From contig CAITJF010000156.1 of NCBI GenBank assembly GCA_903892645.1, positions 1 to 44,595 of the forward strand: DNA of 44,595 bases. Reading direction: 5' to 3'. The notes beneath the pieces are model-generated. The model was given only the letters and a program-made list of their open reading frames with translations. It ran no database searches and was not told the DNA's origin. Position numbers and translations under genes: made by a program. Below, in pieces: positions 112 to 19,543 of the stretch; within the stretch, counting starts at the first letter, position 1; each line of letters begins with the position of its first letter. Source of the stretch: an uncultured Nitrosomonadales bacterium. GTDB lineage: Bacteria > Pseudomonadota > Gammaproteobacteria > Burkholderiales > Gallionellaceae.

Positions 112-271
112 ACTCGCGCATATCATTAGTTTATTGCATGGCAAATAATGCCAGAACATAACATCTGGATTGAAAGTGCTCTTGGCGCGTTATACAAAAT
201 TCAGGACACTCCCCATGTGATTTCCGAATATTCTATACCGGTCGCCCATTAACTTGCAGGAGCCGTACTTA
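112..271. other. Intergenic stretch between IS30 tail and bcsG
   Basis: This 160-bp stretch contains no supported gene. It should include the right end of the IS30-type element just after base 111, but the other terminus is outside the window, so the inverted repeat cannot be delimited. A GCAGGAG at 256-262, about 10 bases before the ATG at 272, is a good ribosome binding site for bcsG. No convincing promoter was found. Confidence 0.5.
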
Positions 272-2131
272 ATGAACCAGCATGCCGAACAGAAATCTGA
301 AGCAGACACACTTACGGCTTCAACTGGAAATCGCATGGCCTCCCTTGCACAAGTTTCGCTGGGCATGTGGAGTTTCTACTTTATTGCGAAATTAGTTCTT
401 TATTGGCAAGAGCTGATTGGGTTTCACGTATGGGTAAACCTTGCTTTTGCCGCCTTCATTTTGCTTCCGGTAAAGCCTGTGCCTCTGTGCAGAGTAAAGC
501 AGGGGGTGACGGCGTTACTCGCAGTGGCGTTGCTGTATTACGATTCATGGTTGCCTGCAATCGGTCGTGTATTTTCTCAAGCCTCGCTGTTATCCGGTTT
601 TAGTATTACCTATCTAATTGAATTAGGGGGGCGTTTTATTAGCCTGCCTGTTGTTGCCATGCTGGGAATTGCCTGGGTAATATATTGGCTTGCTTCACGT
701 TGGGTACGGGTGGATGTAATAATTATCCCCGTGATGATGGTGATGCCGATAGCAACGTTTCTTTTGAGCCCTGCGTTGAGCCCTGTCGAACAACTTGATC
801 AGTCTGAACAAGCTACTCAGTCAATTCAATCAACCCAGCCAGATCAGCCACCTCAGCTAACCAAGCCCACGCAGTCAGCTCAACCACCCCAATCGGTTCA
901 ATCAGCTCAGCTAGCTAAGCTCACGCAGTCAACTCAATCAGCTCAGATAGCTATACCCGTACAGCCAGTTCAGTCAGCTCAGCATAGCGAAAAGGCTGAG
1001 AGTGATGTCGCTGCCAACGCAATCCCGGATATGGATAAAGTGTTACAGAAATTTTTTACACAAGAAGCGGGGCGCTCCGTTTCCTTCCCTATACCTAAAG
1101 CGGACACCATTCCATTCGATATTATTTTTATCCATGTTTGTTCGTTATCATGGGACGACTTGCGGGTAACTGGATTAGAGCACCACCCGTTGTGGCAACG
1201 TTTCGATATCATTCTAACTCACTTTAACTCAGCCTCTACTTATAGCGGACCCGCAGCGATCCGTATGCAGCGCGCCACATGCGGACAGTCTACGCATGCC
1301 AATCTGTATTCGCCCGCCCCAGGCAATTGCTACCTGATGGATAGTCTCAAACACAGCGGTTTCGAACCCGGTTTGGTGCTAAATCATGATGGGCACTTTG
1401 ATAAGTTTCTTCAGACCGTTCAAATACAAGGTCGCTTGAATGCTCCGCTTATGCCGCTTAACGGGGTTGCCATTACCCAGCATGCATTTGACGATACGCC
1501 CATTTACGAGGATTTGTCCGTGCTTGGCCGTTGGCTGGAAAATCGTCAGAAATCAAACAGCCCGCGCGTGGCAATGTATTACAACACAATAAGTTTGCAT
1601 GACGGCAACCACTTGGCCGGAGCCAATTCGAAGCTGAACAGTAGTGAGAATTACAAAATACGTCTGACCAAGCTATTGGACGATTTGGAAAAGTTTATGC
1701 AAAATATCGAAAAGTCGGGAAGACGTGCTGTTGTAGCGATGATTCCCGAGCATGGAGCGGCATTGCGCGGCGACAAAATGCAAATTGCCGGATTGCGTGA
1801 AATCCCCAGCCCGGCGATTACGCTGGTGCCCGTTGGAATCAAGGTTATTGGAGGCAATATCCAGCGTGAAGGGGATACGCTGTCAATTGCCAAGCCCACC
1901 AGCTATTTAGCGGTATCGCATATTATTGCGCGCCTGATGGAAGCCCCTCCCTACACGAAAAAAAGTTTTGCCCCATCGGATTACACCGCCGATTTGCCCG
2001 CCACGCCGTTTGTAGCGCAGAATGACGAAGTGGTTATGGCCGGCTACAAGCAACGTTATTATCTGCGCCAGGACGCATCGGAATGGATCGATTACACTGA
2101 TTTTGATACTGTGGCAAAAAACCATGAGTGA
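272..2131 (+). CDS. bcsG: Cellulose phosphoethanolamine transferase BcsG
   Basis: BcsG is an inner-membrane protein whose periplasmic domain moves phosphoethanolamine from phospholipid to cellulose. About 619 residues are read from ATG 272, preferred over an in-frame TTG at 254 because GCAGGAG lies at the right distance. Hydrophobic segments occupy residues about 30-165. The periplasmic catalytic domain follows from about residue 255. Family residues are visible: Cys290 in HVCSLSWDD, nucleophile Ser325 in TYSGPAAIR, and Glu493-His494 in IPEHGAA. They correspond to E. coli Cys243, Ser278 and Glu442-His443 of the zinc site. E. coli BcsG has 559 residues; the excess is largely a Gln/Ser/Thr/Pro-rich linker at residues 171-240. 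The end overlaps the next gene by 8 bases, and the gene converges on bcsB. Assignment is firm from the aligned motifs. Confidence 0.93.
   Translation: MNQHAEQKSEADTLTASTGNRMASLAQVSLGMWSFYFIAKLVLYWQELIGFHVWVNLAFAAFILLPVKPVPLCRVKQGVTALLAVALLYYDSWLPAIGRVFSQASLLSGFSITYLIELGGRFISLPVVAMLGIAWVIYWLASRWVRVDVIIIPVMMVMPIATFLLSPALSPVEQLDQSEQATQSIQSTQPDQPPQLTKPTQSAQPPQSVQSAQLAKLTQSTQSAQIAIPVQPVQSAQHSEKAESDVAANAIPDMDKVLQKFFTQEAGRSVSFPIPKADTIPFDIIFIHVCSLSWDDLRVTGLEHHPLWQRFDIILTHFNSASTYSGPAAIRMQRATCGQSTHANLYSPAPGNCYLMDSLKHSGFEPGLVLNHDGHFDKFLQTVQIQGRLNAPLMPLNGVAITQHAFDDTPIYEDLSVLGRWLENRQKSNSPRVAMYYNTISLHDGNHLAGANSKLNSSENYKIRLTKLLDDLEKFMQNIEKSGRRAVVAMIPEHGAALRGDKMQIAGLREIPSPAITLVPVGIKVIGGNIQREGDTLSIAKPTSYLAVSHIIARLMEAPPYTKKSFAPSDYTADLPATPFVAQNDEVVMAGYKQRYYLRQDASEWIDYTDFDTVAKNHE
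784..990 (+). repeat. Degenerate tandem repeat coding for a Gln-rich linker in bcsG
   Basis: The DNA repeats a short unit resembling CAGTCAGCTCAA/ACTCAA many times with drift. It encodes runs such as QSAQPPQSVQSAQ and TQSTQSAQ. It lies exactly between the last membrane segment and the catalytic domain of BcsG, so it is a spacer. Slipped-strand expansion or contraction in three-base multiples would change linker length without breaking the frame. Confidence 0.75.
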
Positions 2132-2942
2132 AAACAGCACGGTTCCAGGCAAAAATAACGCTGCCAAAAACAGCAATATGGATGCATACCTCGAAGAGCG
2201 GGCAAAACTCGACGCGCAGTTCGCCAACAAGTTCACCAAATTCATCACGGTCATGTTCACCGACCTCAAGGGCTCGACGACGATTGCCGAGAACGAGGGG
2301 GACATGGTCAGTCGCATGCTAATCAAAGCGCAAAACGATATCCTCCTGCCGGCAATTAAAGAGAATAACGGCGTTTTTATTAAATCAATTGGTGATGGCA
2401 GTTTGTCCTATTTTGAAAACGCGCTTGATGCCTTGCGTGCAGCAGCACGTATTCAGAAGGAGATGGACACCCTCAACATGTCGCATAAATTCAAGTTTCC
2501 GGTTTTTATGCGGGTTGGCATGCATTCCGGGAAATGCGTGGTCGAGGAAAACGATATCTACGGCGATGTTGTGAATACGGCGTCCCGCTTTGAATCTGCT
2601 GCCGATGGCGGAGGAATCCTGATATCCGAGGATACCTACAATGCATTGTCAGACAAATCGGAAATTTATTGCCGTTTTGACAAGCAAGTAACGCTCAAGG
2701 GCAAGAAGGAACCATATAACGCCTATAAGGCATTCTGGAACCCGCGTGAGGTCGAACTCGATAAAACACAAGGCAACCAAACGCCCGTCGCCGCGCCCAC
2801 CTCAAGGTGGAAACTTGCACTGCTTATCGTCATCCCTTTGCTGATCGTTCTTGTGTTTACCTTGTGGCGGCCGATCAAGGACAAAATATCAGTTAACAAG
2901 GACACCCGTTCCATCGAGCATAACGTCACCGAGTCCAAATAG
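2124..2942 (+). CDS. Tail-anchored class III adenylate/guanylate cyclase
   Basis: The protein has 272 residues from ATG 2124, whose ATGAGTGA overlaps the bcsG stop, so translation is probably coupled; a longer upstream frame would lie inside bcsG. A single class III nucleotidyl cyclase domain spans about residues 38-205. Metal-binding Asp47 is in MFTDLKGST and Asp91 is in SIGDGSL. The transition-state pair is Asn151 and Arg155 in NTASRFESA. One membrane segment follows at residues 229-248 with a short polar tail, so the catalytic domain faces the cytoplasm while anchored at the C-terminus. There is no HAMP or sensory domain. It makes cAMP or cGMP; the sequence alone does not settle which. Placement behind bcsG suggests a local signalling role near the cellulose machine, which is inference. 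Confidence 0.85.
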   Translation: MSENSTVPGKNNAAKNSNMDAYLEERAKLDAQFANKFTKFITVMFTDLKGSTTIAENEGDMVSRMLIKAQNDILLPAIKENNGVFIKSIGDGSLSYFENALDALRAAARIQKEMDTLNMSHKFKFPVFMRVGMHSGKCVVEENDIYGDVVNTASRFESAADGGGILISEDTYNALSDKSEIYCRFDKQVTLKGKKEPYNAYKAFWNPREVELDKTQGNQTPVAAPTSRWKLALLIVIPLLIVLVFTLWRPIKDKISVNKDTRSIEHNVTESK

Positions 2943-2945
2943 TCC

Positions 2946-5105
2946 CTAGCTTCCCGATGCCCGGCCCAGTTTTCGGCTGGCGCGATAGCGCCGGAGTGCC
3001 AGATAGATTGCGAAAGCAAGACCGATGCTCAGTAGTATTATCAGGGCATAGTACAAATACGGATGAGCGTAGAGATAGGATTCCAGCTTGGATACCTTGC
3101 CTTCTTTCCCTGTCGTGTATGACTCACCAACTTTGTAACTGTATACCTTGGGTTTTTGGAAATGCGCGCCCATGTCCACCAGCATCAACCCGCCTTCTGC
3201 CTGTACCTGTACTTCGGGTTCCAGTAGCGCCTGGCTGAATTTGAGCAGCGAGTTTCCGTTTTCTGCCGCAACAACCAGGACGGTGCGCCCTGTTTCAGAA
3301 GACGATTCAAATTCCATAAGGTAGCCGCGTCCATCGCCCATCTGGCTTGATTGTTTGCTGTGAGCTATGGTGTATTCCCCATCCCAATCACGCACAACGG
3401 GATAAGGGACATTTGACTTGTCGCCGATAAATAACGCGGATTTTTTTTCGAATTCGCGCGGTATCTTGCCCGGTGGTCCGATCACGATGAGGTCGCCCTT
3501 CAAGTCCTTGGGTGGTTTTGTGTCTATCTGCATTGCCAGCAGGGGAAACCCGTTTTTCTGGGTGATCATCCCGATCAGGTTCATGGTCGCGGCGACAGAA
3601 TCCGCATCGACCTCCGACAGGTAAATTTTGGATTCAAATCCATCCGGCCAGCGTGTGAACGGAAATCCGTTCAGCATGAATAACTCCAGTTTGGGCAACT
3701 CGACAAAATGGGGCATGTCTGGAAAAGTCAGGGTCGAGTTCTCAAAAATGGTGAGGAACATGTTGCCCAGCAGCGCCACATCGCATTCCTGGAGCGGCGG
3801 ATGCAATTCCACCCCGAAGGCAATGACGTTGTTTCCAGGCTTGAACAGATAGGTCGGGATATCGATGACGTAATCATCGAAGAATGAACCATCCCTGTTG
3901 CCGAGGTGGATGGCCTTGACCGCCTTGTCGTTGACTATGATATTGAGCGCCGAGGTATCGTGCAAACCAGCGCCGTAGGAAAAATTCAGGTGGATCTTGG
4001 CGCGCAGATTCTGCTGGATCATGAAGTCCACCGGCAGGCGGAAGTTGATGGTTTTACCGGTTGGGTTAATTCCCTTGAACGTGGTGGAAGGGAAATTCAG
4101 CGTCTTGAAAGCGTAGGTCTTGTTTGCATGCACCACCTCGCGTCCGCCATAGGCTTCAATATCGGGCATCTTGAAGCTGAAGGCGTTCAGTTCCTGAGAA
4201 CCCGGAAAACCGAAGGAAATATTTGCGAAAGTTTCGGCGGCGAGCTTGACGTGGTCATACTTCTCTCCGGTTACTGCCAACAGCACATGTTTGGTATCGA
4301 ACTGCCCATTTCCTGCGGGCAATGAAAAAATCTTGAGATAGCCGCCCTCGACCTTGCCCAAGCTCAACCCCCTGGCATTCAGGAAGTTGTTGACGAAAGC
4401 TTGGCGTCCCACCAGCACATTATCCACGCCTGGCTTGATATTTTGCGAAACGGTGAAGGTGACCTTGCGGTAATCGTAGCGCCGTGCGATTCCGGATGAC
4501 GCGATGCCAAGCGAGGTCAGGGATTCTGCGGACTGGTCTTCCGTGATCAGGTTAACATGGCCCTCCGGAAGGATTTTAGGGTCAAAAAGGAAGTCGGCAA
4601 CGCTCGACAGCGCCAGTGGCACGGCTTTCTCTTCATACTCTACTTCCAGGGTGGAATCCTTCAGGTTGATGGTCGTCCATAAGTCAGGAGAGCATGGTTT
4701 TTCGCATTGTTTGCCCAGAACCGGTATATGCTGGGAAGCGGCAAATGCAATCTTGTTGTAGCCCGGTTCGAGATATTGTATTGGCAGGTTTAACTTGACC
4801 AATACATCCGGGCTGGCCGGGTTCAGCTTGGCTTGCGCGACCGGAACATCGTTCACTTTGATCGCCAGCTGGGCGAGTTCACCCAGCAGATTGTTGGATG
4901 AGGTGTAATGCAGGTTAATGGCCGCTTTCTTGATAACCCAGCGGTCTGAAATGGGAATGTTAATAATCTTCTCGTCACTGGTGCAGGTGAGCGTGATGGT
5001 CGGCGAGGGTGCAAGCTTATCCAGGGGTATCTGCAGCGTCAGGGCCGTTGATACTGCCGGCAGCAACAGACCTAACAGAAAAGCAGAGAGTAAGCGTAGT
5101 GTCAT
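2946..5105 (-). CDS. bcsB: Cellulose synthase periplasmic subunit BcsB
   Basis: BcsB is the periplasmic, membrane-anchored partner of BcsA that guides the nascent glucan across the periplasm. From ATG 5105 the protein has 719 residues. It starts with a signal-like hydrophobic stretch (MTLRLLSAFLLGLLLPA), continues through alternating carbohydrate-binding and flavodoxin-like domains typical of the family, and ends in a transmembrane helix (YYALIILLSIGLAFAIYLAL) plus a basic tail, the part that docks on BcsA. ATG 5105 overlaps the bcsA stop as ATGA, which argues for this start; an in-frame ATG at 5144, preceded by a G-rich stretch, would add 13 residues. The stop lies only 3 bp from that of the convergent cyclase gene. 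No bcsZ or bcsC follows. Confidence 0.92.
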   Translation of the reverse strand: MTLRLLSAFLLGLLLPAVSTALTLQIPLDKLAPSPTITLTCTSDEKIINIPISDRWVIKKAAINLHYTSSNNLLGELAQLAIKVNDVPVAQAKLNPASPDVLVKLNLPIQYLEPGYNKIAFAASQHIPVLGKQCEKPCSPDLWTTINLKDSTLEVEYEEKAVPLALSSVADFLFDPKILPEGHVNLITEDQSAESLTSLGIASSGIARRYDYRKVTFTVSQNIKPGVDNVLVGRQAFVNNFLNARGLSLGKVEGGYLKIFSLPAGNGQFDTKHVLLAVTGEKYDHVKLAAETFANISFGFPGSQELNAFSFKMPDIEAYGGREVVHANKTYAFKTLNFPSTTFKGINPTGKTINFRLPVDFMIQQNLRAKIHLNFSYGAGLHDTSALNIIVNDKAVKAIHLGNRDGSFFDDYVIDIPTYLFKPGNNVIAFGVELHPPLQECDVALLGNMFLTIFENSTLTFPDMPHFVELPKLELFMLNGFPFTRWPDGFESKIYLSEVDADSVAATMNLIGMITQKNGFPLLAMQIDTKPPKDLKGDLIVIGPPGKIPREFEKKSALFIGDKSNVPYPVVRDWDGEYTIAHSKQSSQMGDGRGYLMEFESSSETGRTVLVVAAENGNSLLKFSQALLEPEVQVQAEGGLMLVDMGAHFQKPKVYSYKVGESYTTGKEGKVSKLESYLYAHPYLYYALIILLSIGLAFAIYLALRRYRASRKLGRASGS

Positions 5106-7351
5106 ACTGCGCCCAAAGCGCGTTGAATTGTTTTTGCCAGCCATTTATGCCCCCGCCATGTTTTTCGTAACATTACCCAAAGCATTGCAGCACTCTGGCT
5201 GGAACCCTTGGTTCCCATCCTTAACAAGCGCCACAGCATTTTCAATACGCCGCCGGAATTGGAGCGCTCCGCCCATTTTTCCAGCCAACGTTTGCTGTCG
5301 CCGTACACATATGCCACTGCTTCAGCATATTTTTCGGGGTTGAGCAGATACTCTGCCCCGCAGCTATACACCCCATTATTTTCAAATGGGCGCTGCAATT
5401 TTGCCTCGAATTGAAAAGTTCTGCCACGGCTATTTTGCACCTCCAGCATGACGCGCTCCTGATTGACCAGAGGGTAGGGTGTCTGCACCCGGAAGCTCAT
5501 TCCCTTGAGAGAAATATCACCGACTTCACCCGCCAGTTCCAGATTGAGGCGCGGGAAAGATACCTTGACCGGTTCCTTGACATTCACGCGATGGAAGAAG
5601 CGAATCTGCTTGCGCTCCCAGAACGCACCCAGCGATATGGTCAGCAGGAACAGGTTGTAGACACACCATACCCCCGTAATGATGAGCGTATCCCGCAGAA
5701 TCGGTTCTGAAAACCACTTGAAGGCTCCAATCACGATCGCCAGGCAGTTCACGGCAATGGCAATAAAGAAAATGATCGCCAGAGGATTCAGGGATTCATC
5801 GTCCTGGGTTTGCCCCTTCGGGGTCACCTTGAACGATGGCTTGCTCGGGTTGAGTATTACCGAGATTACGGCCGGAACCAGAAAAATTGCCTGCACGCTC
5901 TCATACAGCTCGGAAAAGAAAGGTTCGCGTGTCCGGCCGTAAAAGAAATCCATCAAAACAAATGTCGAGAGCACATAAGGCAGGCTGTACTGCAGAATTT
6001 GCATCAGGGAGGCATGGTAGATCGACAGGCCGAGAATCAGGAAAAGGGCCGGTGCAATGTAAAAAGTAAGGCGTGCAAACCCGAAAAACCAGAAAAAACA
6101 GGAATTGAAATAGCAGATGCGTTGTTGCAGGCTCAATCCGGGCGCCAGCAACGGGTTATTCATTATGAACAATTGCACCATGCCCTGTGCCCAGCGCGTG
6201 CGTTGCAGAATGTAATCGTCGTAGTTTTCCGGGGAAAGTCCGCAGATCATGGGCATATCCATGTAGGCGCTGTTGTATCCCTTGCTGTGCAACTGGAATG
6301 CGGTCTCGGCGTCCTCGGTGATGGTCTTGCCGGAAATGCCGCCGACTTCCATCAGGCAGCTGCGGCGCAGCAGGGCTGCGGAGCCGCAGAAGTAGCTCGA
6401 ATTCCAGAAATCAAGAGAGCGGTGGATTTCGCGGTAGAACATGTCGTTCTCACCGTTGGTGCTGCTGACGCTCGCCGCACTTTTTTCCACCGGGGTCGGG
6501 TTGATGAAAAAGTGCGGCGTTTGCACCACGAATAGCTTGGGGTCGGCCAGAAAGTATTCAACGGTGCGCGTCAGGAAATCGCTGGTCGGCACATGGTCGC
6601 AGTCGAGCACCAGGATCAGCTCGCCGTTGGTATGGTTCAGCACATGGTTGAGGTTGCCCGCCTTGGCGGAACGGTTGGTTTCACGGGTGATGTATTCAAC
6701 ATCCAGCTCTTGCGCCAATGCGCGCAAGCGATAATGGCGTTCCCATGCCTCTTGCGATGAACCCGGCTGATTGCGTTTGTTGAGAGTGCCGCCGTCGTCG
6801 CAGATGGTGATGCGCAGTTTGTTTTTGGGATAATCGAGCTGGGTGGCTGCGATAGTGGTGATACGGATAATTTCGTCGGATTCGTTGTAGGTGGGAATGA
6901 ACACGTCCACTGAGGGATATTTGGAAATATCCTCCGGCAACAGCGCCGGTCGGTTGCGCATCGGCCACAGGTTGACGAACATGCCAAGAAAATGGATGGT
7001 GATGGCATAGACCTCCGCGAGGTAAAGTAGTGCCATTCCCAGGAAATCCAGCGGACCGGTATAGACCAGGCTTTCGAAGCTGCGCCAGAGGAGGTAGCGC
7101 AATGCCAGGTATCCCGATAGCAGAATAAACAGGAAGCGCCAAGGCGGGCGCTTGAACAGCTGCCACCTGGACAACACAAACAGCAGAAGCAGGCAACCCC
7201 AACTCAGCAGCAGCTGGCGTTTAGCATCGAAATGCTCCATGGATATATCCAGCAGGTACAGCAGCATACCGGCGAAGAGGAATGCTAGCCCGGTTTTCAG
7301 CTTTTGCAGTAACCCATGGTGGCCTATCCATAGTGCAAATTTTGTTGTCAT
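5102..7351 (-). CDS. bcsA: Cellulose synthase catalytic subunit BcsA with PilZ domain
   Basis: BcsA is an inner-membrane GT2 synthase that polymerises UDP-glucose into beta-1,4-glucan and exports it; 749 residues. Family signatures appear in order: Asp185-Asp186 in ICDDGG, the DCD at 250-252, TED at 345-347 (catalytic base and acceptor site), QRTRW at 383-387, and the gating-loop motif FKVTPKG at about 507-513. A C-terminal PilZ domain follows, with Arg584-x3-Arg588 (RFFHR) and DISLKG at 612-617, so activity should need cyclic di-GMP. Membrane helices flank the glycosyltransferase domain. The upstream neighbour is a LapD-like c-di-GMP receptor on the same strand, 59 bp away, and bcsB follows with ATGA overlap. 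The ribosome binding site before ATG 7351 is weak, so coupling or a longer message is possible. Confidence 0.95.
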   Translation of the reverse strand: MTTKFALWIGHHGLLQKLKTGLAFLFAGMLLYLLDISMEHFDAKRQLLLSWGCLLLLFVLSRWQLFKRPPWRFLFILLSGYLALRYLLWRSFESLVYTGPLDFLGMALLYLAEVYAITIHFLGMFVNLWPMRNRPALLPEDISKYPSVDVFIPTYNESDEIIRITTIAATQLDYPKNKLRITICDDGGTLNKRNQPGSSQEAWERHYRLRALAQELDVEYITRETNRSAKAGNLNHVLNHTNGELILVLDCDHVPTSDFLTRTVEYFLADPKLFVVQTPHFFINPTPVEKSAASVSSTNGENDMFYREIHRSLDFWNSSYFCGSAALLRRSCLMEVGGISGKTITEDAETAFQLHSKGYNSAYMDMPMICGLSPENYDDYILQRTRWAQGMVQLFIMNNPLLAPGLSLQQRICYFNSCFFWFFGFARLTFYIAPALFLILGLSIYHASLMQILQYSLPYVLSTFVLMDFFYGRTREPFFSELYESVQAIFLVPAVISVILNPSKPSFKVTPKGQTQDDESLNPLAIIFFIAIAVNCLAIVIGAFKWFSEPILRDTLIITGVWCVYNLFLLTISLGAFWERKQIRFFHRVNVKEPVKVSFPRLNLELAGEVGDISLKGMSFRVQTPYPLVNQERVMLEVQNSRGRTFQFEAKLQRPFENNGVYSCGAEYLLNPEKYAEAVAYVYGDSKRWLEKWAERSNSGGVLKMLWRLLRMGTKGSSQSAAMLWVMLRKTWRGHKWLAKTIQRALGAV

Positions 7352-7410: not shown

Positions 7411-9372
7411 TCAATCCCATTTTGCCGGTTGAGCTACGCCATATCCCTTTACACCATCCACGCGGAGGCTCTTGAGCGTGTTCCGCTCTTCAATGGTTTC
7501 CACCGACTCGGCGATGACATAAATGCCGAGGCCGTGGGCGAACTTGGCCAGAGACTCGACGAAGAATTGGTTGTCCTTGTTTTCCTGAATGCCGCGGGTA
7601 TAGCTGCCATCGATCTTGATGTAGTCGAGCTTTAGCGTGCTCAGGTAGTTGAAGGATTGGAATCCTTTTCCAACTTGGTCAAGCCCGGTTTTGGCACCGG
7701 TCGCGGCAACACATTCCACCCAGCTGCGTAGCGCATCAAGATTGTCAGTGGCACCATGCTCCCTCAATTCAAATGCAATGCGTGGAGCTACATCCGCATG
7801 TTTGCGCAGGATGTCGCACAGCCAGGCCACGAAGCCACTGTCCTTGATCGACATCGGAAACAGGTTTACCGCCGCCACAATGTTCGCGTTTTCCGGGTGC
7901 CCAAGGCGTGCCAGTGTTTCGCTTACAACCTGCTTGTCAAAGTCCTGGGTAAGATGGAGGTGTTTAGCCATGGGGATGATGCGGCTGGCTGGAATTAGCT
8001 TCTCGTTGCTGTCGTAAATGCGCAGCAGCACCTCGTATTGGAGAATCTGGGTGTCGTCCTTGCAGGACATGATTGCTTGCCGATGCAGGATGATGCGGCG
8101 CTCCGCCAGCACGTTGCTTAGCACTTCCATCCAGTGCGATGCAGGGTGTAAACCAGTATCGTCAGTCTTCCTGCTGTCGCTGATATGAAACGCATTGGAT
8201 CCATTGATCTGGGATGTCCTCAGGGCCATATCGGCTTCCGACATTAATTGCCCAACAGTCTGTCCGTGGTAGATGGCGGCACCGACATGGCCAATATTGC
8301 TTGTGTCGGTCAAGCCGCGTTCCTGAAGTTTGACAAGGGACAGGGCAAGTTTTTCAGCAAGCGAACGCACACCTTCATCCACTAAATCCTGGGTCAGGAT
8401 AGCAAAGTTGGCATCGCTCAGGTGCGCCACGATATAGTGAAGATGGGGTGTTTCCTTGCAGACTTCTTCGAGCAGCGTACCGCACCCGCGTAGCAGTTCG
8501 ACACCAGCCCTGTATCCTTTGCGTTCGGTGAAATTCCGGAATTCGTGGAGCTCAATGAGAATAAGCGCGTTAGTGGATGAGGTTCTTCGTGTTTTTGTTA
8601 CCTGGGTTAGCTGAATATCGAAATATTTCCGGTTGGCGAGGCCGGTGAGCGCGTCAACATAGGTGTCGGCCTGCATGCGTTCCATGGCATCCGCCTGTTC
8701 CTTGAACATCTCCTTTACTTTGTTGGACATCATGTTCATGGCGCTGACGACATTGCGTAATTCAAGTGTCCATGGCATCTGGTCTTGTACCGTGTATTCA
8801 CGGTTGCAGATCGCCTTGGCCTGCGCTTCCACGGCGCGTAGCGGCTGCAATACATGGCGCAGGGCAATAATGCCAAGCAGCATGGCGAAACCGGAAAATC
8901 CGAGGAACCACCAGAAAGAGGTCACGCTGCTGCTCCACAGCGAGGAGTAGGCGTAACCAGGATTGGCGCTGACACGTATCTTGCCCCACTTTTTCCAGCC
9001 TGCCATGATTATGGCTTCGCCACGGGGTGTATCAAGGGCAATCCAGTTGATAAACCACGCGGGAACATCCTTCACGACGGCGGGTTGAATGCGCTCGATA
9101 ACAGTCTTTCCGTTGATATCCGTAATCACCACTTCACGGTAGTAGCCGCTGTCGGAAATAGCATTGATCTCACTTTCAACAAAAGCTATCTCGCCCTTTG
9201 CGATGTGTGGCGACAGGGACAGGCCCAGTGATGTCGCCGAATCTTGGGAAATGTTGCGCAGCTGGTTGTTAAGGTAACTGCGGGTGTTTTGTATATTGAT
9301 TACCACCGATCCGATAAACATCAGGATAAACAGCGTGGCAATTACGATGATTAGTTGGCGCAGAAGAGTCAT
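7411..9372 (-). CDS. LapD-like inner-membrane c-di-GMP receptor (degenerate GGDEF-EAL)
   Basis: The protein has 653 residues. An N-terminal transmembrane helix (about 5-25) precedes a periplasmic LapD_MoxY_N-type domain, with the typical GWKKWGKIRV and NPGYAY region at about 125-142. A second helix (about 152-172), a HAMP-like linker, a GGDEF domain (about 235-400) and an EAL domain (about 415-650) follow. The GGDEF signature is replaced by SDANF at 319-323, so cyclase activity is not expected. The EAL motif is EVL at 447-449, but the usual DDFGTG is LDQVGKG, with Gln566 at a metal-binding Asp. This points to a c-di-GMP sensor rather than an enzyme. LapD normally sequesters the protease LapG by its periplasmic output domain, and a LapG-like gene lies 43 bp upstream. 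The gene sits directly before bcsA. Confidence 0.85.
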   Translation of the reverse strand: MTLLRQLIIVIATLFILMFIGSVVINIQNTRSYLNNQLRNISQDSATSLGLSLSPHIAKGEIAFVESEINAISDSGYYREVVITDINGKTVIERIQPAVVKDVPAWFINWIALDTPRGEAIIMAGWKKWGKIRVSANPGYAYSSLWSSSVTSFWWFLGFSGFAMLLGIIALRHVLQPLRAVEAQAKAICNREYTVQDQMPWTLELRNVVSAMNMMSNKVKEMFKEQADAMERMQADTYVDALTGLANRKYFDIQLTQVTKTRRTSSTNALILIELHEFRNFTERKGYRAGVELLRGCGTLLEEVCKETPHLHYIVAHLSDANFAILTQDLVDEGVRSLAEKLALSLVKLQERGLTDTSNIGHVGAAIYHGQTVGQLMSEADMALRTSQINGSNAFHISDSRKTDDTGLHPASHWMEVLSNVLAERRIILHRQAIMSCKDDTQILQYEVLLRIYDSNEKLIPASRIIPMAKHLHLTQDFDKQVVSETLARLGHPENANIVAAVNLFPMSIKDSGFVAWLCDILRKHADVAPRIAFELREHGATDNLDALRSWVECVAATGAKTGLDQVGKGFQSFNYLSTLKLDYIKIDGSYTRGIQENKDNQFFVESLAKFAHGLGIYVIAESVETIEERNTLKSLRVDGVKGYGVAQPAKWD

Positions 9373-9415: not shown

Positions 9416-10099
9416 TTATTCAGCCAATAAGAATTCTTTGCCCATGCGGGCATTCATTTCATTCCATAGATCAACATGGCCTGACGCTGCGGAGCGCCCA
9501 TCGCCGCGTTCCTTGGCAAGCCACAATCCGTCTCCATTGAAACTGTATATGGGAATCAGGTCGTTGCGCTCATTGGCCGGTTTGACCTCTCCGTCCAGGT
9601 TGTCGAGCACCAAAGGCATGGCATCGGGTCTGGGGTAGTAGGTCAGCACCATGTGCGCCTGATCGGCTGGTGGGAGAGTTGTGGCAGTGACGTAGGTGAT
9701 TTGCAACTGGTCTATGCTGACCCCAAGAGCCAGCAGCGTAAAGTATTTGCTGATTGCAAAGGCCGCATGGCCGCCACCGTTGCGCGCCAGCATTTCTACA
9801 GGGGTGGGCCAGTAGTTGCGCTTGCCCCAAAGCTCCATGTCGGATTTGAAGGGGATGCGGTTGAAAAAATCGTTGGTCAGTTCCAGCTTCTCGGCAACGG
9901 ACTTCCTTTTGTTGCTTGCGATCAATTTGGTCCAGGCAAGGAGCCGGCGGGGAGCGGTCGGACCGTATGTTGCCTCGGCGCCTATGAGGACTTTTTGCGT
10001 GAGCGCAACGACGTAGCTCTCCTCGGCGATCAGTGCCTGGGCGATAAGGAGAAAAATCATGCCGAGAGCGACACAGGATGGGAGATATTTAGTCTTCAT
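9416..10099 (-). CDS. LapG-like periplasmic protein lacking the catalytic cysteine
   Basis: The protein has 227 residues from ATG 10099 (MKTKYLPSCV...), giving a conventional signal peptide; an in-frame ATG at 10135 would add 12 residues. The body matches the bacterial transglutaminase-like cysteine proteinase family (LapG): LWGKRNYWPTPVEML, ISKYFTLLALG, HMVLTYY, LVLDNLDGEVKPA and YSFNGDGLW. In active LapG the sequence GGDCED carries the catalytic Cys and calcium ligands. Here it reads GGGHAA at residues 108-113 (bases 9761-9778), so Cys is His111 and the acidic residues are Gly or Ala. His149 and Asp166 of the triad remain. It therefore looks like a stable pseudoprotease, first gene of the unit lapG-like/lapD-like/bcsA/bcsB, and may act as a binding partner of the LapD-like receptor. 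Confidence 0.85.
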   Translation of the reverse strand: MKTKYLPSCVALGMIFLLIAQALIAEESYVVALTQKVLIGAEATYGPTAPRRLLAWTKLIASNKRKSVAEKLELTNDFFNRIPFKSDMELWGKRNYWPTPVEMLARNGGGHAAFAISKYFTLLALGVSIDQLQITYVTATTLPPADQAHMVLTYYPRPDAMPLVLDNLDGEVKPANERNDLIPIYSFNGDGLWLAKERGDGRSAASGHVDLWNEMNARMGKEFLLAE

Positions 10100-10498: not shown

Positions 10499-12157
10499 TT
10501 ATCTCAGCTGCTGTGTGGTGAGTTTACCCAAGTAGTGATTAATCAAGCCATTGGTCGAGGAATCGTGCGAGGAAGCACGCTGTTTGCCCTGAAGTTCCGG
10601 CAGTAATTTTCCGGCGAGTTGTTTGCCGAATTCGACGCCCCATTGGTCGAATGAATTGATGTTCCATACGATACCTTGCACAAACACCTTGTGTTCATAG
10701 AGGGCGATCAGCATTCCCAGTGTGTACGGGTCGAGTTTGTCAAACAGTAGCGTGTTGCTCGGGCGGTTTCCCGGAAATATTTTATACGGTAGCAGCGATT
10801 CCAGTACCGCACCGTTGAGTCCTTGCGCTGCGAGTTCGGTGCGAACCTCTTCAACGGTTTTGCCCAGCATCAGTGCCTCGGTCTGTGCGAAGCAGTTCGA
10901 CAACAGCATGGCGTGGTGCTCACCCATTGGATTATGGCTGACAAGCGGTGCGAGGAAATCGGTAGGGATCATGCGCGTGCCTTGGTGCAGTAGTTGGTAG
11001 AACGAATGCTGTCCATTGGTGCCGGGCTCCCCCCACACTACCATTTGAGTCGCGTAATCTGTTTCGTGGCCATCACGGTCTACGCACTTGCCATTGCTTT
11101 CCATTTCCAGTTGTTGCAGATAGGCGGGAAAGTGTTGCAGATATTGATCATAGGGCAGGACGGCGCACGAAGCGGCATCAAAGAAATTGGCATACCAGAT
11201 GCCGAGCATACCCATGATTACCGGCATGTTGCGCTCGAAGGGTTCTTCACGGAAGTGCTCGTCCATGGCATGGGCGCCAGCAAGCAACTGTTCGAAATTA
11301 TCCATGCCGATATAAAGCGCGATGGGCAGGCCTATGGCCGACCACAGGGAATAGCGGCCACCGACCCAATCCCAGAATTCAAATACGTTGTCTGGATTGA
11401 TGCCGAACCTGGATGTTGCGGCGAGGTTAGTCGAGATGGCCACAAAATGTTTTGCAACGGCCTCTTCATTGCCCAAATGTTTAACCAGCCATGCACGCGC
11501 GGAGCTTGCATTGGTAAGAGTTTCCTGGGTGGTGAAGGTTTTCGAGCTGACGATAAACAGCGTGATTTCCGGGTCGAGGTGCTTGAGGGTTTCCGCAATA
11601 TCCGTGGCATCCACATTGGAAACGAAGTGCGCGTTCAGTTGCGTGCTGCCATAAGGCTTGAGCGCCTCGCAGGCCATCAGCGGCCCCAGCGCGGAGCCGC
11701 CGATGCCGATATTTACTATGTCCCGGAACGGTTTGCCGGTATGCCCGCGCAACGAGCCGTTGCGCACGGCCTCGGAGAAACGGCGCATATGATCCAGCAC
11801 GCGGTGCACGTCCGGCATGACATCCTTGCCATCCACATAAACCTCAGTGCCGCGCGGCGCGCGCAATGCAGTATGCAACACGGCACGCTGCTCGCTGGTG
11901 TTGATTTTTTCGCCGTTGAACATGCGTGCAATCCACCCATCCAGCTTTGACTGGCGCGCCAGGTCCAGCAGCAGCGCAAGCGTTTCTTTCGTGATGAGGT
12001 TTTTCGAGTAATCCAGTAACAGGCCATCGAGTTGCAGCGAAAACTTTTCAAAACGCGCCGGGTCAGCACGAAACATCTCGCGCATGGTTTGTCGGCTTGT
12101 GACGGGTTGATGCGCCGATATGGCTTGCCAGGCAGGTGAATGGGTTAGATTTGACAT
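10499..12157 (-). CDS. pgi: Glucose-6-phosphate isomerase
   Basis: Pgi interconverts glucose-6-phosphate and fructose-6-phosphate in the cytoplasm; 552 residues, the usual length for the long bacterial form. Diagnostic stretches include [11 protein letters not shown] near residue 150, the [10 protein letters not shown] phosphate-binding segment, [13 protein letters not shown], the catalytic region around [15 protein letters not shown], and a C-terminal [14 protein letters not shown]-like motif (here [15 protein letters not shown]). It starts at ATG 12157 behind GGATTACAACC. It stands at the head of a block of sugar-phosphate and glycogen genes, although its stop is followed by 400 bp of non-coding DNA. 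Confidence 0.96.
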
Positions 12158-12714: not shown

Positions 12715-14892
12715 TTATGCCGGAGCCAGAATAATACAAGCCAGCGGGGGTAATTCTATTTCGGCGGAGTAGGGTTGTCCCATCCATGGTATTTGCTCGG
12801 CACGGATTTCGCCCGCGTTGCCGAGGTTGCTGCCGCCATAATAATACGAATCACTGTTGAAAATTTCCCGATAGGCGCGATCTAACGGCAGCCCGATGCG
12901 ATAACGGTGGCGCGGAACCGGGGTAAAGTTTAAGGCAGAAACGACTGTTTCGCCATTACGCCCATGGCGCAGAAAGGAAAGCAGCGAAAGATTGGTGTCA
13001 TTGCAGTCCATCCAGGAAAAGCCGCATTGTTCGAAGTCCTGTTCGTACAGCGCCGGCAGGCTGCGGTACAAGTGGTTCAGGTCGCGCACCATGTTTTGTA
13101 TGCCGCGATGGGATTCGAGTCCGAGTTGCCACCATTCAAGCTCCCAGCTTGAGCGCCATTCCAGACCTTGGCCGAATTCGTTGCCCATGAAATTGAATTT
13201 CTTCCCCGGGCTTAACATCTGGTAAGCCAGCAACAAGCGTAGATTGGCAAATTTCTGCCACGCATCGCCGGGCATTTTGTCGAGCAGTGAACCTTTGCCA
13301 TGCACGACTTCATCATGCGAGAACGGCAGCATGAAATTTTCGGTGTAGGCATAAAGCTGGCTGAAGGTAAGTTGGTTGAGGTGGTAACGGCGGTGTACCG
13401 GATCATGCTGCATGAAGCTGAGTGTGTCGTTCATCCAGCCCATGTTCCATTTCATGGAGAAGCCCAGCCCGCCGAGATAGGTCGGGCGCGATACGGCAGG
13501 CCACGAGGTGGATTCTTCGGCTATTGTCAACGCTCCCGGAAACAGGTCATGTGCCATGATGTTGAGCTCGCGCAGGAAATCAATGGCCTCCAGATTTTCG
13601 CGGCCACCGTATTTGTTCGGCAGCCATTCATTGTGCTTGCGCGAATAGTCGAGGTACAGCATGGAAGCCACGGCATCCACGCGCAGGCCGTCGAAGTGAA
13701 ATTGCGAAAGCCAGTAATGCGCGCTCGACAGCAGGAAGCTTTTCACTTCGTTGCGGCCATAGTTGAAGATGTGTGTGCCCCAGTCCTGATGGAAGCCTAG
13801 GCGCGGGTCTTCGTGCTCGTACAGCGCGGTGCCGTCGAAGCGCGCCAAGGCAAAAGCATCCTGCGGGAAGTGTGCCGGTACCCAGTCCAGCAGTACGCCG
13901 ACCCCCGCCTGGTGGCAGCTATCCACGAAATAACACAGGTCGTCTGGAGAGCCGAAGCGGCTGGTCGCGGCGAAATAGCCGGTAGTCTGGTAGCCCCAGG
14001 ATTCATCGAGCGGATGCTCCGAAACAGGCATCAGTTCGACATGTGTGTAGCCCATGTCTTTGACGTAAGGGATCAGGTGTTCGGCCAGTTCGCGGTAGGT
14101 ATAGTGGCGCCCATCCGGGTGGCGTTTCCATGAACCGGCATGGATTTCATAGGCATTGAGCGGGGCATGCAGCCAATCCCAGTGGCTGCGCTGCTCCATC
14201 CATGCCGCATCCTGCCATGTGTGCTCGATTTTTAACCCGGCGCGCGCGGCGGTGCCGGGGCGCAATTCGAAAGCGTTGGCATAGGGGTCGGTCTTGGTCA
14301 GCAATTTGCCAGCCACATTATAAATCTCGTATTTGTATAACGCGCCCTGTTCGATACCCGGAATGAATAGTTCCCATACGCCGCTGGAGCCATGCACTGC
14401 CATCGGATAAATGCGCCCATCCCAGCGGTTGAATTCGCCTACTACGCTGACCCGTTCGGCATTCGGCGCCCATACGGAAAAACGCACGCCGGGAATGCCG
14501 TCAATCTGCATGGCATGCGAGCCGAGGATGCGATAGCCCTGATGCAGCCTGCCTTCGTTGAACAGGTGCAGATCGAAGCTGGAGATTTGCGGAGCAAAGG
14601 CGTAGGCATCGTAGGCTAAACGCTGGCTGCCATTTTCCGTGATGCGAAACTGGTAGTGGTGAGGAGGTTCGCTGTTGCCATGCCATTCAAACAAACCATC
14701 GGGATGAACACGTTTCAGCGGCTCGCTACCCGACGCGGTTTCGAGACCAATTTCGCTTGCGTGGGGATTGAATACCCGCACCACATAACCATCTTTCTCG
14801 TGGTGTGGGCCGAGATAGGCGAGGGGGTCGTGCAAACGTCCCTGCAAAAGTAATTCGGCGCGTGGATCGGATTTGATGTGGGTTTTTTTCAT
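12715..14892 (-). CDS. glgB: 1,4-alpha-glucan branching enzyme
   Basis: GlgB adds alpha-1,6 branches to glycogen in the cytoplasm; about 725 residues from ATG 14892, compared with roughly 730 in E. coli. Longer frames start upstream at non-conserved sequence (14961) and would run into the divergent glgC. An N-terminal CBM48-type domain ([23 protein letters not shown]) precedes a GH13 barrel: [19 protein letters not shown] with the nucleophile Asp, the acid/base Glu in [10 protein letters not shown], and [10 protein letters not shown] with the stabilising Asp. The gene is divergent from glgC, and the DUF2934 gene follows. The upstream TATAAT at 14902-14907 (minus strand) would give a very short leader if it is the real -10. 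Confidence 0.95.
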
Positions 14893-14978
14893 GGTTGATT
14901 GATTATAACCACAATTTTGCAGACTATTGCCGTAATCTGATACAGTGCGCAAAGCAGTCAAAACTTGGTGCCATAATC
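14893..14978. promoter_or_regulatory. Divergent glgB/glgC promoter region
   Basis: The 86 bp between the two proposed ATGs must serve both genes. On the minus strand ATTATA at 14902-14907 reads TATAAT, a perfect -10, but with no clear -35 at 17 bp. On the plus strand TTGCAG (14917-14922) and TACAGT (14941-14946), 18 bp apart, form a weak pair for glgC. These are pattern matches only. Confidence 0.35.
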
Positions 14979-16259
14979 ATGTTACCGCAAGAGCAAATTC
15001 GCCTAGTGAGCTGGATGACCAAAAACACCTATGCCATGGTGCTGGCGGGTGGACGCGGTAGCCGCCTGCATCAATTGACGGACTGGCGAGCCAAGCCGGC
15101 GGTGCCGTTTGGCGGAAAATTCCGCATCATTGATTTCGTGTTGTCGAACTGTGTCAATTCCGGTATCCGGCGTATCGGCGTGGCCACGCAATACAAGTCG
15201 CACAGCCTGATGCAGCATATTCAGCATGGCTGGAGTTTTTTGAACGGCAACTTTGGCGAATTTGTAGATTTACTGCCCGCCCAGCAATGGGTGCAGGAAT
15301 CGTGGTATCAGGGCACTGCCGATGCGGTGTTCCAGAATCTGGATATCTTGCGCGAATCAAAACCCGATTATGTGCTGATACTGGCGGGCGACCACGTTTA
15401 CAAGATGGATTACGGCAAGATGTTGGCCTTCCATGTGGAAAAACGGGCCGATATGTCCGTTGCCTGCATCGAGGTGCCGATCAATGATGCCAAAGGGTTC
15501 GGCGTGATGGCGGTGGATGAAGATTCGAGGGTGGTGGATTTCAGCGAGAAGCCGGATCATCCCACGCCGATTCCCGGCAAGCCTGACTTGGCGTTGGCCA
15601 GTATGGGCATTTATATATTCAATATGGAGTTCCTGAGTGAGCTGTTGGTACGTGATGCGGGCGATCCAAACTCATCCCATGATTTCGGCAAGGACATCAT
15701 CCCGTATCTGTTGTCATCAGGCTACCGTTTATGCGCCCAGAGTTTCAGCAACAGCTGCGTAAAAATGGAGAGCGGTGCGCCGTATTGGCGCGATGTGGGA
15801 ACCATAGATTCCTACTGGGAGGCGAACATGGAGCTCACCAAGGTTACTCCCGACCTCAACATGTATGATCAGGAGTGGCCGATCTGGACTTATCAGGAAC
15901 AATTGCCGCCGGCCAAATTTGTGTTTGACGATGAAGAGCGCCGCGGCCAGGCGATTGATTCTCTGGTATCCGGCGGTTGCATCATCAGTGGCGCAACTGT
16001 GCGCCGCTCGCTGCTTTTCTCCAATGTACGCGTGCATAGCTACAGCAACGTCGAAGACTCGGTGATCCTTCCCAACGTCGAGATCGGTCGCAATGTCACG
16101 CTCAAGCGGGCGGTGGTGGACAAGAACTGCGTGATCCCGGATGACCTTGTCGTCGGGGTCGATAGCGCAGAAGATGCGAGCCGTTTTTTTGTAACTGATA
16201 AAGGCATTACGCTCATTACGCCGGAAATGCTGGGGCAGGATGTGCATGGTATTCGTTGA
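14979..16259 (+). CDS. glgC: Glucose-1-phosphate adenylyltransferase (ADP-glucose pyrophosphorylase)
   Basis: GlgC makes ADP-glucose from ATP and glucose-1-phosphate, the committed step of bacterial glycogen synthesis; 426 residues from ATG 14979. The upstream in-frame ATG at 14895 would overlap the divergent promoter region and add 28 residues absent from the family. The nucleotide-binding loop LAGGRGSRLHQLT is at about residues 19-31, then KPAVPFGGKFRIIDF, the GTADAV segment, the sugar-binding EKP, and a C-terminal left-handed beta-helix (IISGATVRRSLLFSNVRV onward) that in the family carries allosteric sites. No glgA is in the window. A GH57 gene follows after 45 bp. Confidence 0.95.
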   Translation: MLPQEQIRLVSWMTKNTYAMVLAGGRGSRLHQLTDWRAKPAVPFGGKFRIIDFVLSNCVNSGIRRIGVATQYKSHSLMQHIQHGWSFLNGNFGEFVDLLPAQQWVQESWYQGTADAVFQNLDILRESKPDYVLILAGDHVYKMDYGKMLAFHVEKRADMSVACIEVPINDAKGFGVMAVDEDSRVVDFSEKPDHPTPIPGKPDLALASMGIYIFNMEFLSELLVRDAGDPNSSHDFGKDIIPYLLSSGYRLCAQSFSNSCVKMESGAPYWRDVGTIDSYWEANMELTKVTPDLNMYDQEWPIWTYQEQLPPAKFVFDDEERRGQAIDSLVSGGCIISGATVRRSLLFSNVRVHSYSNVEDSVILPNVEIGRNVTLKRAVVDKNCVIPDDLVVGVDSAEDASRFFVTDKGITLITPEMLGQDVHGIR

Positions 16260-16304
16260 TCATGGCTGTGGGTACCCTGCCGTAAAGAATAGTATTCATT
16301 TTTC

Positions 16305-18020
16305 ATGACTAAACCCCTCGATCTGGTTTTTCTCTGGCATATGCACCAGCCGGATTACCGCGATTATGCCACCGGTGATTTCGTGTTGCCGTGGGTCTAT
16401 CTGCACGCCATGAAGGATTACACCGACATGGCCTATCACCTGGAAAAATACCCGCAGATGAAGGCGGTGGTAAATTTCGTGCCGGTGCTACTGGATCAGC
16501 TCGAAGATTACGCACAACAATTCGCCACCGGCCAGCTACGCGATCCGCTGTTGCGCTTGCTGGTGCGCGAGAACCTGAATGAATTGAGTGAAGCCGAGCG
16601 CGATCTTGTGTTCAACAGTTGCTTCCGCAGCAACCACCACAAGATGATCGAGCCGTATCCCACCTACCATCGCCTGTTTGAATTGTTCAAGACGCTTGAA
16701 CCGGCCGGCAGCGCGGGGCTTGTCTATTTATCCGGGCAATACATTGTTGACCTGATTGTCTGGTATCACTTGGTGTGGTGCGGCGAAACCGTGCGCCGCG
16801 AACATGATCTGGTTATCCGCCTGATGAGCAAGGATGAAGGTTTCGACTATGCTGACCGCAAGCTGCTGTTTGAATTGATCGGCCAGCTTGTTACCGGCAT
16901 TATTCCGCGTTACCGCAGGCTGGCCGAAAGCGGGCAAATCGAGATTTCCACCACACTGCATTACCATCCGCTTGCGCCGCTGTTGCTGGATCTCAACAGT
17001 GCGCGGGAAAGCGCGCCGGAGAGCAGCCTGCCGCAATCGCAGCGCTATCCCGGCGGAAAGAGCCGTGTGCAGGCGCATCTGGCTTCCGCCAGGGAAAGCC
17101 ATCGCACCCGTTTTGGGAACACCCCGCAAGGCATCTGGCCGGCTGAGGGTGCGGTTTCGACCGCGTTGCTGGAAGTGCTGGCAGAACAAAAGTGCCGTTG
17201 GGCAGCGAGCGGCCAAGGGGTGCTGGTCAACAGCCTGCGTGCTGTAAATCCATCCATACCTGGGTGCGCGCAATACCTCTATCGCCCCTACCAGTTGCAA
17301 GGTGCGGCAAGCGGCACGTATTGTTTTTTCCGCGATGATCACTTGTCCGACTTGATTGGTTTTGAATATTCCAGATGGTTTGGCAAGGATGCCGCACTGC
17401 ACTTTGTTTCCCAGCTCGAAACGATAGCGCAGCAGGCGCCCGAGGGCGAAACGCCGCTGGTAAGCATCATCCTCGATGGTGAGAACGCTTGGGAATCTTA
17501 TCCGTATAACGGCTATCACTTTCTGCAGGATATGTATTCCGTGTTGCAGGCACACCCGGAAATTTGCACCACGACCTATAGCGACTATCTGGACCGGCGT
17601 GATGCGCAAGGTGGACAAGGGTTTGCCAAGGACGGTGTATTGCCGCGTCTGGTTGCGGGCAGTTGGGTGTATGGTACTTTCTCCACCTGGATTGGCTCGC
17701 CCGATAAAAACCGCGCCTGGGATTTATTGTGTGTGGCGAAACAGAACTACGACATGGTAACGGCAAGCAGCCGCCTGAATGAGGCCGAGCTGAAAGCCGC
17801 CGAGAGGCAGCTGGCTTCATGCGAAAGCTCCGACTGGTTCTGGTGGTTTGGCGATTACAATCCTTCCCATGCGGTGGCGAGTTTTGACCGCCTCTATCGC
17901 AATAACTTGATGCAGCTTTACCGTTTGTTGAAATTGCCCATTCCGGCGATGCTGCACAACCCGATCAGCCAAGGCGGCGGAGCGCCGGAGGCAGGCGGCG
18001 CGATGCGGCGCGGCTCCTAA
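16305..18020 (+). CDS. Glycoside hydrolase family 57 protein (alpha-glucan active)
   Basis: The protein has 571 residues. The start LDLVFLWHMHQPDYRD carries the GH57 region I motif (HQP). Further conserved stretches are FNSCFRSNHHKMIEPYPTY, GIWPAEGAVS (region with a key Glu), GFEYSRWFG and LDGENAWESYPYNG (region with a conserved acidic residue). GH57 members are retaining alpha-amylases, amylopullulanases, 4-alpha-glucanotransferases or branching enzymes; this sequence does not allow choice among them. A cytoplasmic role in glycogen remodelling is inferred because glgC precedes it and malQ starts 8 bp after its stop. The C-terminus is Gly/Ala-rich and probably disordered. Confidence 0.85.
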   Translation: MTKPLDLVFLWHMHQPDYRDYATGDFVLPWVYLHAMKDYTDMAYHLEKYPQMKAVVNFVPVLLDQLEDYAQQFATGQLRDPLLRLLVRENLNELSEAERDLVFNSCFRSNHHKMIEPYPTYHRLFELFKTLEPAGSAGLVYLSGQYIVDLIVWYHLVWCGETVRREHDLVIRLMSKDEGFDYADRKLLFELIGQLVTGIIPRYRRLAESGQIEISTTLHYHPLAPLLLDLNSARESAPESSLPQSQRYPGGKSRVQAHLASARESHRTRFGNTPQGIWPAEGAVSTALLEVLAEQKCRWAASGQGVLVNSLRAVNPSIPGCAQYLYRPYQLQGAASGTYCFFRDDHLSDLIGFEYSRWFGKDAALHFVSQLETIAQQAPEGETPLVSIILDGENAWESYPYNGYHFLQDMYSVLQAHPEICTTTYSDYLDRRDAQGGQGFAKDGVLPRLVAGSWVYGTFSTWIGSPDKNRAWDLLCVAKQNYDMVTASSRLNEAELKAAERQLASCESSDWFWWFGDYNPSHAVASFDRLYRNNLMQLYRLLKLPIPAMLHNPISQGGGAPEAGGAMRRGS

Positions 18021-18028
18021 CCCTTCAT

Positions 18029-19543
18029 ATGTTAGCGGATCGCGCCGGCGGCATATTGCTGCATCTGACATCCCTTCCAGGTGCGTTCGGTGCGGGTGAC
18101 TTTGGCACGGATGCTTACAAATTTGTCGACTGGTTGGTAAGCGCCAACCAAACCTATTGGCAAGTTCTGCCCTTGGGCGAAATAGGCCCGGGAAACTCCC
18201 CGTACATGAGCAGTTCAGCCTTCGCCGGCAACATCCTGTTGATTGATCTCGCTGAATTGGCCAACCTGGGTTGGCTACTCCACGAGGACTTGATACCCCA
18301 TCCGGAATTTCGCGCCGACAGGGTAGATTTCGCACTCTTGCACTCGTTTCGCATGGAGCGGCTGCGCCGTGCCGCCGAGAGTTTTTTTATGAGCCGTCCC
18401 GATAAAATGCACAGGTCGTATGAAGAATTCTGCCTGGCAGAAGGCGAATGGCTGGAAGACTATGCATTATTCATGACGATTGCGGAGCGCGAAAATTGGC
18501 GCGAGTGGAATCACTGGCCGAAGGATATTGCACTTAGAAATTCGCAGGTGCTACATCGTCTTAAACAGGATTGCGCCGACAAAATTGGCTTCTGGAAATT
18601 CTGCCAATGGTGCTTTGCGCGCCAATGGTCAAGATTGAAGCATTATGCCAACGAGCGCGGCGTCCGCATCATCGGCGACGTGCCGATATTCGTGGCCTAT
18701 CAGAGTGCCGACGTGTGGTCGCACCAGAAGCTGTTTGAACTGGACGAAAATGGACGCCCATTCGTTGTCGCCGGTGTGCCGCCCGATTACTTCAGCGAGA
18801 CCGGGCAACTGTGGGGGAATCCGCTCTACCGCTGGGATGTTCACAAGGAGACCGGTTACGCTTGGTGGATAGCGCGTTTACGATATGCACTCCGGCAAGC
18901 AGACATGGTGCGGGTCGATCATTTCCGCGGCTTTGCCGCTTACTGGGAGATTCCGGCAGATGCCCCCAACGCCATTGTCGGCAAGTGGGAGCCAGGCCCC
19001 GGAGAGAAGCTATTTGCAGCATTTGAACAAGCTTTTCCGCGCCTGCCCATCATCGCCGAAGACCTGGGTTTGATCACCCCAGATGTGCTGGAACTGCGCG
19101 ATCAATTCAAGCTGCCCGGTATGCGTGTCCTGCAGTTCGCATTTGGCAATGGGGAGGCCAACCCCTTCTTGCCGCACCATTACGTGCCCAACACCGTCGC
19201 CTACACGGGAACTCACGACAATGACACCAGCATTGGCTGGTGGAACTCCTTGTCCGACCATGAGAAAATTTTTGCCCGGCAGTATCTCAGCATGGACAGC
19301 GACAGTGAGGCGATTAATTGGGTCATGATGCACGCCCTTTCCAAATCAGTGGCAAATATAGTCATCTTCCCCATGCAGGATGTGCTCGGCCTTTCCAGCG
19401 AACATCGCATGAACTTTCCAGGCCGACCGACCCGAAACTGGGAATGGCGTTTTTCATGGGACATGATCAAGCTGGAGCATACCTTGGCATTGGCGGAAAT
19501 GACTACTGAATACGGGCGCAGTGGTGAAAGTGCATTGAAATAA
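18029..19543 (+). CDS. malQ: 4-alpha-glucanotransferase (GH77, amylomaltase)
   Basis: MalQ transfers alpha-1,4-glucan segments between maltodextrins; 504 residues, the short bacterial/plant D-enzyme type. Typical features: RAGGILLHLTSLPG at the start, GNSPYMSSSAFAGN, DVPIFVAYQSADVW, VRVDHFRGF with the nucleophile Asp, IIAEDLG with the acid/base Glu, and YTGTHDNDT with the third Asp. The start ATG 18029 has no clear ribosome binding site and lies 8 bp after the GH57 stop, so translational coupling is likely. An IS5-type element is inserted about 117 bp downstream. Confidence 0.94.
   Translation: MLADRAGGILLHLTSLPGAFGAGDFGTDAYKFVDWLVSANQTYWQVLPLGEIGPGNSPYMSSSAFAGNILLIDLAELANLGWLLHEDLIPHPEFRADRVDFALLHSFRMERLRRAAESFFMSRPDKMHRSYEEFCLAEGEWLEDYALFMTIAERENWREWNHWPKDIALRNSQVLHRLKQDCADKIGFWKFCQWCFARQWSRLKHYANERGVRIIGDVPIFVAYQSADVWSHQKLFELDENGRPFVVAGVPPDYFSETGQLWGNPLYRWDVHKETGYAWWIARLRYALRQADMVRVDHFRGFAAYWEIPADAPNAIVGKWEPGPGEKLFAAFEQAFPRLPIIAEDLGLITPDVLELRDQFKLPGMRVLQFAFGNGEANPFLPHHYVPNTVAYTGTHDNDTSIGWWNSLSDHEKIFARQYLSMDSDSEAINWVMMHALSKSVANIVIFPMQDVLGLSSEHRMNFPGRPTRNWEWRFSWDMIKLEHTLALAEMTTEYGRSGESALK

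Follow-up and report, generated by a model that had tools for sequence, protein, structure and literature searches.

LapG is a protease that is held back by LapD. The LapG C135A variant is proteolytically dead and confers a hyper-adherent phenotype (PMC3032545). LapD binding has been measured with LapG dye-labelled at C135, and LapG itself has been shown, on purified LapD, to be a co-activating ligand of the receptor (PMC5231407). Cross-links to LapD involve the LapG positions A169, Y176, V205 and Y206 (PMC4359373). In the present study we examined a LapG-like protein without the catalytic Cys (pseudo-LapG), encoded beside a LapD-like receptor in a 44,595-nucleotide stretch of a Gallionellaceae genome (the whole stretch analysed is referred to as the window). 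No description of such pseudo-LapGs was found in the open-access literature, most subscription journals lying outside the search, and a literature search for any connection of LapG or BTLCP to cellulose, or to Gallionellaceae, found none.

The pseudo-LapG and its locus

The original prediction of a LapG-family gene at 9416-10099 was correct in both coordinates and family identity, the gene being located on the minus strand. Its translation, which contains MLARNGGGHAAFAISKYF, also bears out the predicted changes in the active site: the GGDCED segment reads GGGHAA with His111 for the catalytic Cys, and the triad residues His149 and Asp166 are still present, leaving the Cys-His-Asp triad incomplete. 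Also gone are D134, E136 and D137 (P. fluorescens numbering), the LapG calcium-site acids beside the Cys, which are replaced by G, A and A, respectively. Family membership is real, although weak in Pfam, where the PF06035 score is 32.1 bits and the cut-off 27. Strong structural matches of the AlphaFold model (mean pLDDT 86.8) obtained with Foldseek were confined to LapG crystal structures (4fgq, 4u65; E ~1e-17). The protein therefore has both the fold and the family profile of LapG, although its 196 bits to the NCBIfam LapG model NF045674 fall below the equivalog cut-off of 320. It is the sole PF06035 protein of its genome.

Gene coordinates and domains confirm the predicted same-strand order lapG, lapD, bcsA, bcsB, with gaps of 43 nt between lapG and lapD and 59 nt between lapD and bcsA, and a 43 nt overlap of bcsA and bcsB (Table 1).

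Table 1 Features of the window discussed in the text
Feature	Position	Strand	Remarks
BcsG family protein	254..2131	plus	
Class III nucleotidyl cyclase	2022..2942	plus	convergent with bcsB here
BcsB	2946..5144	minus	domain profile searches
BcsA cellulose synthase	5102..7351	minus	PilZ RxxxR/DxSxxG, TED and QxxRW motifs
LapD-like receptor	7411..9372	minus	LapD_MoxY_N periplasmic domain and degenerate GGDEF-EAL; docking Trp kept
pseudo-lapG, Cys-less LapG-like protein	9416..10099	minus	227 aa, signal-peptide-like N-terminus
pgi	10499..12157	minus	constant upstream neighbour of pseudo-lapG/lapD in 4/4 genomes
Glycogen/starch cluster	12715..19543		glgB, glgC, GH57 protein, malQ-like gene
DDE transposase of insertion sequence	19699..20625		downstream of glycogen genes

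A group of Cys-less LapGs under constraint

Eight Cys-less LapGs from two genera of the host family were compared with 63 other LapGs of the family and order, the named relatives being Nitrosomonadales MAGs. All 63 of the latter keep DCED. A homologue from the same genus as the window protein (71% identical) reads GGSPAS, two genomes of the second genus carry GASSED and GATAED, and four more copies in these two genera have AGSQAD (twice), AGSHAD and GGSHTD. With the motif masked, the eight formed one group in the tree (support 82/78), a single grouping in which we place moderate confidence. Open frames are intact in every copy, and pairwise dN/dS based on Nei-Gojobori counts in the window's subclade was 0.19-0.30 for pseudo-lapG, 0.13-0.19 for lapD and 0.10-0.14 for pgi, at synonymous distances of ~0.7-1.3. 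Cys loss was thus found to recur in relatives. Being common to eight grouped LapGs under constraint, it did not arise recently in the window protein, and the fact that relatives also lack the Cys rules out a sequencing error as well as a fresh mutation.

Loss of the catalytic and calcium sites, together with a dN/dS somewhat above that of lapD and pgi, could indicate a relic, a lapG copy in slow decay beside a LapD that still does the work. We consider this unlikely given a dN/dS well below 1 over such synonymous distances, the eight intact frames and the LapD-facing residues kept in the window's subclade. A switch to a different nucleophile or metal for catalysis would fit the His at the Cys position in the window and the Ser in one sister, but among close relatives this site holds any of His, Pro, Ser, Ala and Gln, and with no conserved replacement this explanation is scarcely credible.

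More widely, 369 genomes were sampled across the class and 83 PF06035 places in them were read, comprising 78 with DCED, one with DCEE, one cut by a contig end and three with Ser for Cys. Two of these three are LapGs (GDSED; L266:1258-1956 and L268:4526-5242) in one genus of another family; a LapD-like gene adjoins one of them, and the other copy has also lost the catalytic His. In a relative from the family of that genus the motif is still GDCED, and LapD follows a neighbour that has a similar LysR-like look. This separate Cys-to-Ser case in another family shows that the Cys has been lost beside LapD more than once, without bcs. The third Ser case is a 647 aa protein (L267:7772-9715) in which a caspase domain and a PEGA domain are joined by a weak BTLCP-like segment that lacks the Cys (GDSED).

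Sequence conservation at the LapD-binding face

The Cys-less LapGs comprise subclade A, the window's type, present in four genomes, and subclade B, containing the others. In all four subclade A genomes the pseudo-lapG/lapD pair is located beside pgi. Subclade A has lost D119, D134 and C135 (P. fluorescens numbering), and its members from the genus of the window also lack E136 and D137; these five positions, plus 233 in one member, are those that are invariant in the 63 active LapGs but changed in subclade A. Both H170 and D187 are kept, as are the cross-link positions 169, 176, 205 and 206, which read A/S, Y, I/V and Y, respectively. The LapD partner of the window carries the receptor hallmarks listed in Table 1, and its docking Trp lies in GWKK, the three sister LapDs having GWKQ. 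In contrast, subclade B consists of orphan genes in which Tyr replaces the catalytic His and the LapD contacts are lost.

The retention of contacts in A and their loss in B, our main sequence argument, suggests that subclade A still binds LapD. Against such binding we count the change of a few other well-conserved positions in subclade A (122, 181, 196, 197 and 236) and the Gln to Lys replacement in the window LapD relative to the usual GWxQ. On balance the LapD-binding face appears to be kept in the window pseudo-LapG, which is most likely a member of a small, stable LapG pseudoprotease subfamily without proteolysis. Orphan pseudo-LapGs that have lost Cys, His and LapD contacts are located at L032:257-958, L033:6848-7543, L036:10748-11455 and L038:9481-10230, and a LysM-M23 peptidase gene occurs near an orphan copy in one genome, with a similar-looking gene near another.

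The adjoining cellulose synthase genes

A cellulose switch was part of the original prediction, in which a pseudo-LapG under the control of LapD would bind to BcsB or to the export complex and so gate the synthesis of cellulose, which depends on c-di-GMP. Consistent with such a switch are the tight same-strand lapG-lapD-bcsA-bcsB arrangement, the c-di-GMP and catalytic motifs kept in BcsA, the presence of bcsZ-bcsC on another contig of the genome, and the precedent of the distant BTLCP HvyA, which controls the Caulobacter capsule but needs its catalytic triad to do so (PMC4241560). However, three of the four genomes carry the pair but no cellulose synthase: only the window's genome has bcsA, and neither bcsA nor bcsC was found in the other three, one of which is only 73% complete. 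What lies downstream of lapD in these three is Sel1-repeat genes, sapC together with a second lapG/lapD, or an active lapG. A bcsA was detected at E <= 1e-100 in 40 of 158 family genomes. Ten bcs clusters of the family were read besides that of the window, and lapG was absent from all of them. A GGDEF-EAL protein, or a fragment of one, occurs close to two of these ten; the single one that was tested is of the HAMP/PAS kind and not of the LapD type.

We consider the switch very unlikely: a dead LapG that is kept and is probably a binding protein survives from the original prediction, but its action on cellulose or BcsB does not. A recurrent LapG-bcs link is rejected for the 158 family genomes, in which Cys loss tied to bcs was sought and not found, the constant partners being LapD and pgi. 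Homologues that are bcs-linked and keep GGDCED, which had been named as refuting evidence, were not found either, as no other bcs-linked homologue was found.

Of the seven closest family bcs clusters, six have a class III cyclase immediately upstream of bcsA and five contain bcsG. The window differs in that its bcsG and cyclase are convergent with bcsB, from which it appears that bcsAB were inverted or re-inserted behind lapD, a position that is peculiar to the window's genome among the four. The bcsZ-like GH8 gene and bcsC of this genome lie beside glycogen phosphorylase (L263, G000:C149). Between lapD and bcsA there is a T-run after lapD and no terminator-like hairpin above chance, making co-transcription of the two genes plausible. 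A local rearrangement has probably brought the bcs genes to their place after lapD, where they are probably transcribed together with it as passengers. That LapD and pseudo-LapG form a protease-free c-di-GMP module, wired here to cellulose synthesis by a new operon, seems quite improbable. The loci of other family genomes in which the cyclase precedes bcsA are L167 and L169-L173, and in one genome the cyclase is fused to a Ser/Thr kinase domain.

Proposed role of the pseudo-LapG

No active LapG was found in the window's genome, a draft assembly from which one could be missing, and no LapA retention module above cut-off was found in any of the four subclade A genomes, likewise drafts from which an adhesin could be missing. 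The best below-cut-off retention_LapA match in the window's genome is a 269-aa protein resembling a FecR-domain protein. The only candidate there for a type I secretion partner was rejected: it is an LssB-like transporter that scores below cut-off and has no adjoining adhesin. An active LapG is also present in the three sister genomes, and in one of them (L037:8805-12323) pseudo-lapG, lapD and active lapG lie in a row in the same direction.

The sister LapGs, together with a fold and conserved core that are largely kept, would suit a pseudo-LapG that shields the substrate from active LapG by covering either the cleavage site of the adhesin or its retention module. Such shielding is quite unlikely, however, considering the lack of above-cut-off retention modules, the lack of any active LapG in the genome of the window, and the fact that the residues lost are those of the catalytic site.

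We favour a LapD-binding pseudoprotease, a competitor beside active LapG and a pure LapD co-ligand in the window's genome, at a probability of roughly 0.55. Loss of the Cys from a gene kept beside LapD suggests binding rather than cutting, and a Cys-less LapG could still act on LapD because C135-modified LapG binds LapD and LapG activates it. LapD bound to c-di-GMP would expose its Trp loop and bind the pseudo-LapG encoded next door. With active LapG present, the two would be rivals for LapD, and the threshold of adhesin release would shift, competition being the simplest idea for the sister genome with all three genes in a row. Since neither an active LapG nor an above-cut-off retention module was found in the window's genome, the ligand role alone remains for it there, and pseudo-LapG may act in the periplasm as the second ligand of a LapD coincidence detector, stabilising its c-di-GMP-bound state. 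A natural, conserved non-cutting LapG would separate the protease and ligand roles, and would allow one to ask what LapD does with its ligand but without the protease.

Comparison with known systems

The bcsA-bcsB-bcsG clusters of the same bacterial family contain the same genes as the window, including the usual class III cyclase, but in the window bcsAB point towards bcsG and the cyclase from behind lapD, and bcsZ-bcsC are on the other contig. HvyA of Caulobacter is, like the window protein, a BTLCP; it limits capsule and so is tied to a surface polysaccharide, but unlike the window protein it depends on its catalytic triad (PMC4241560). The c-di-GMP receptor LapD and the window LapD are alike in LapD_MoxY_N, degenerate GGDEF-EAL and docking Trp, and differ in that the latter has GWKK for GWxQ and a pseudoprotease as partner. 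The LapGs of Pseudomonas fluorescens and Legionella pneumophila, ~41-43% identical to the window protein over the aligned structures, share with it the fold, the triad His and Asp, the LapD-contact positions and the lapG-lapD order, whereas the window protein is without the catalytic Cys and the DCED calcium acids, has Asp119 replaced, and is encoded by a gene that does not adjoin adhesin or type I secretion genes.
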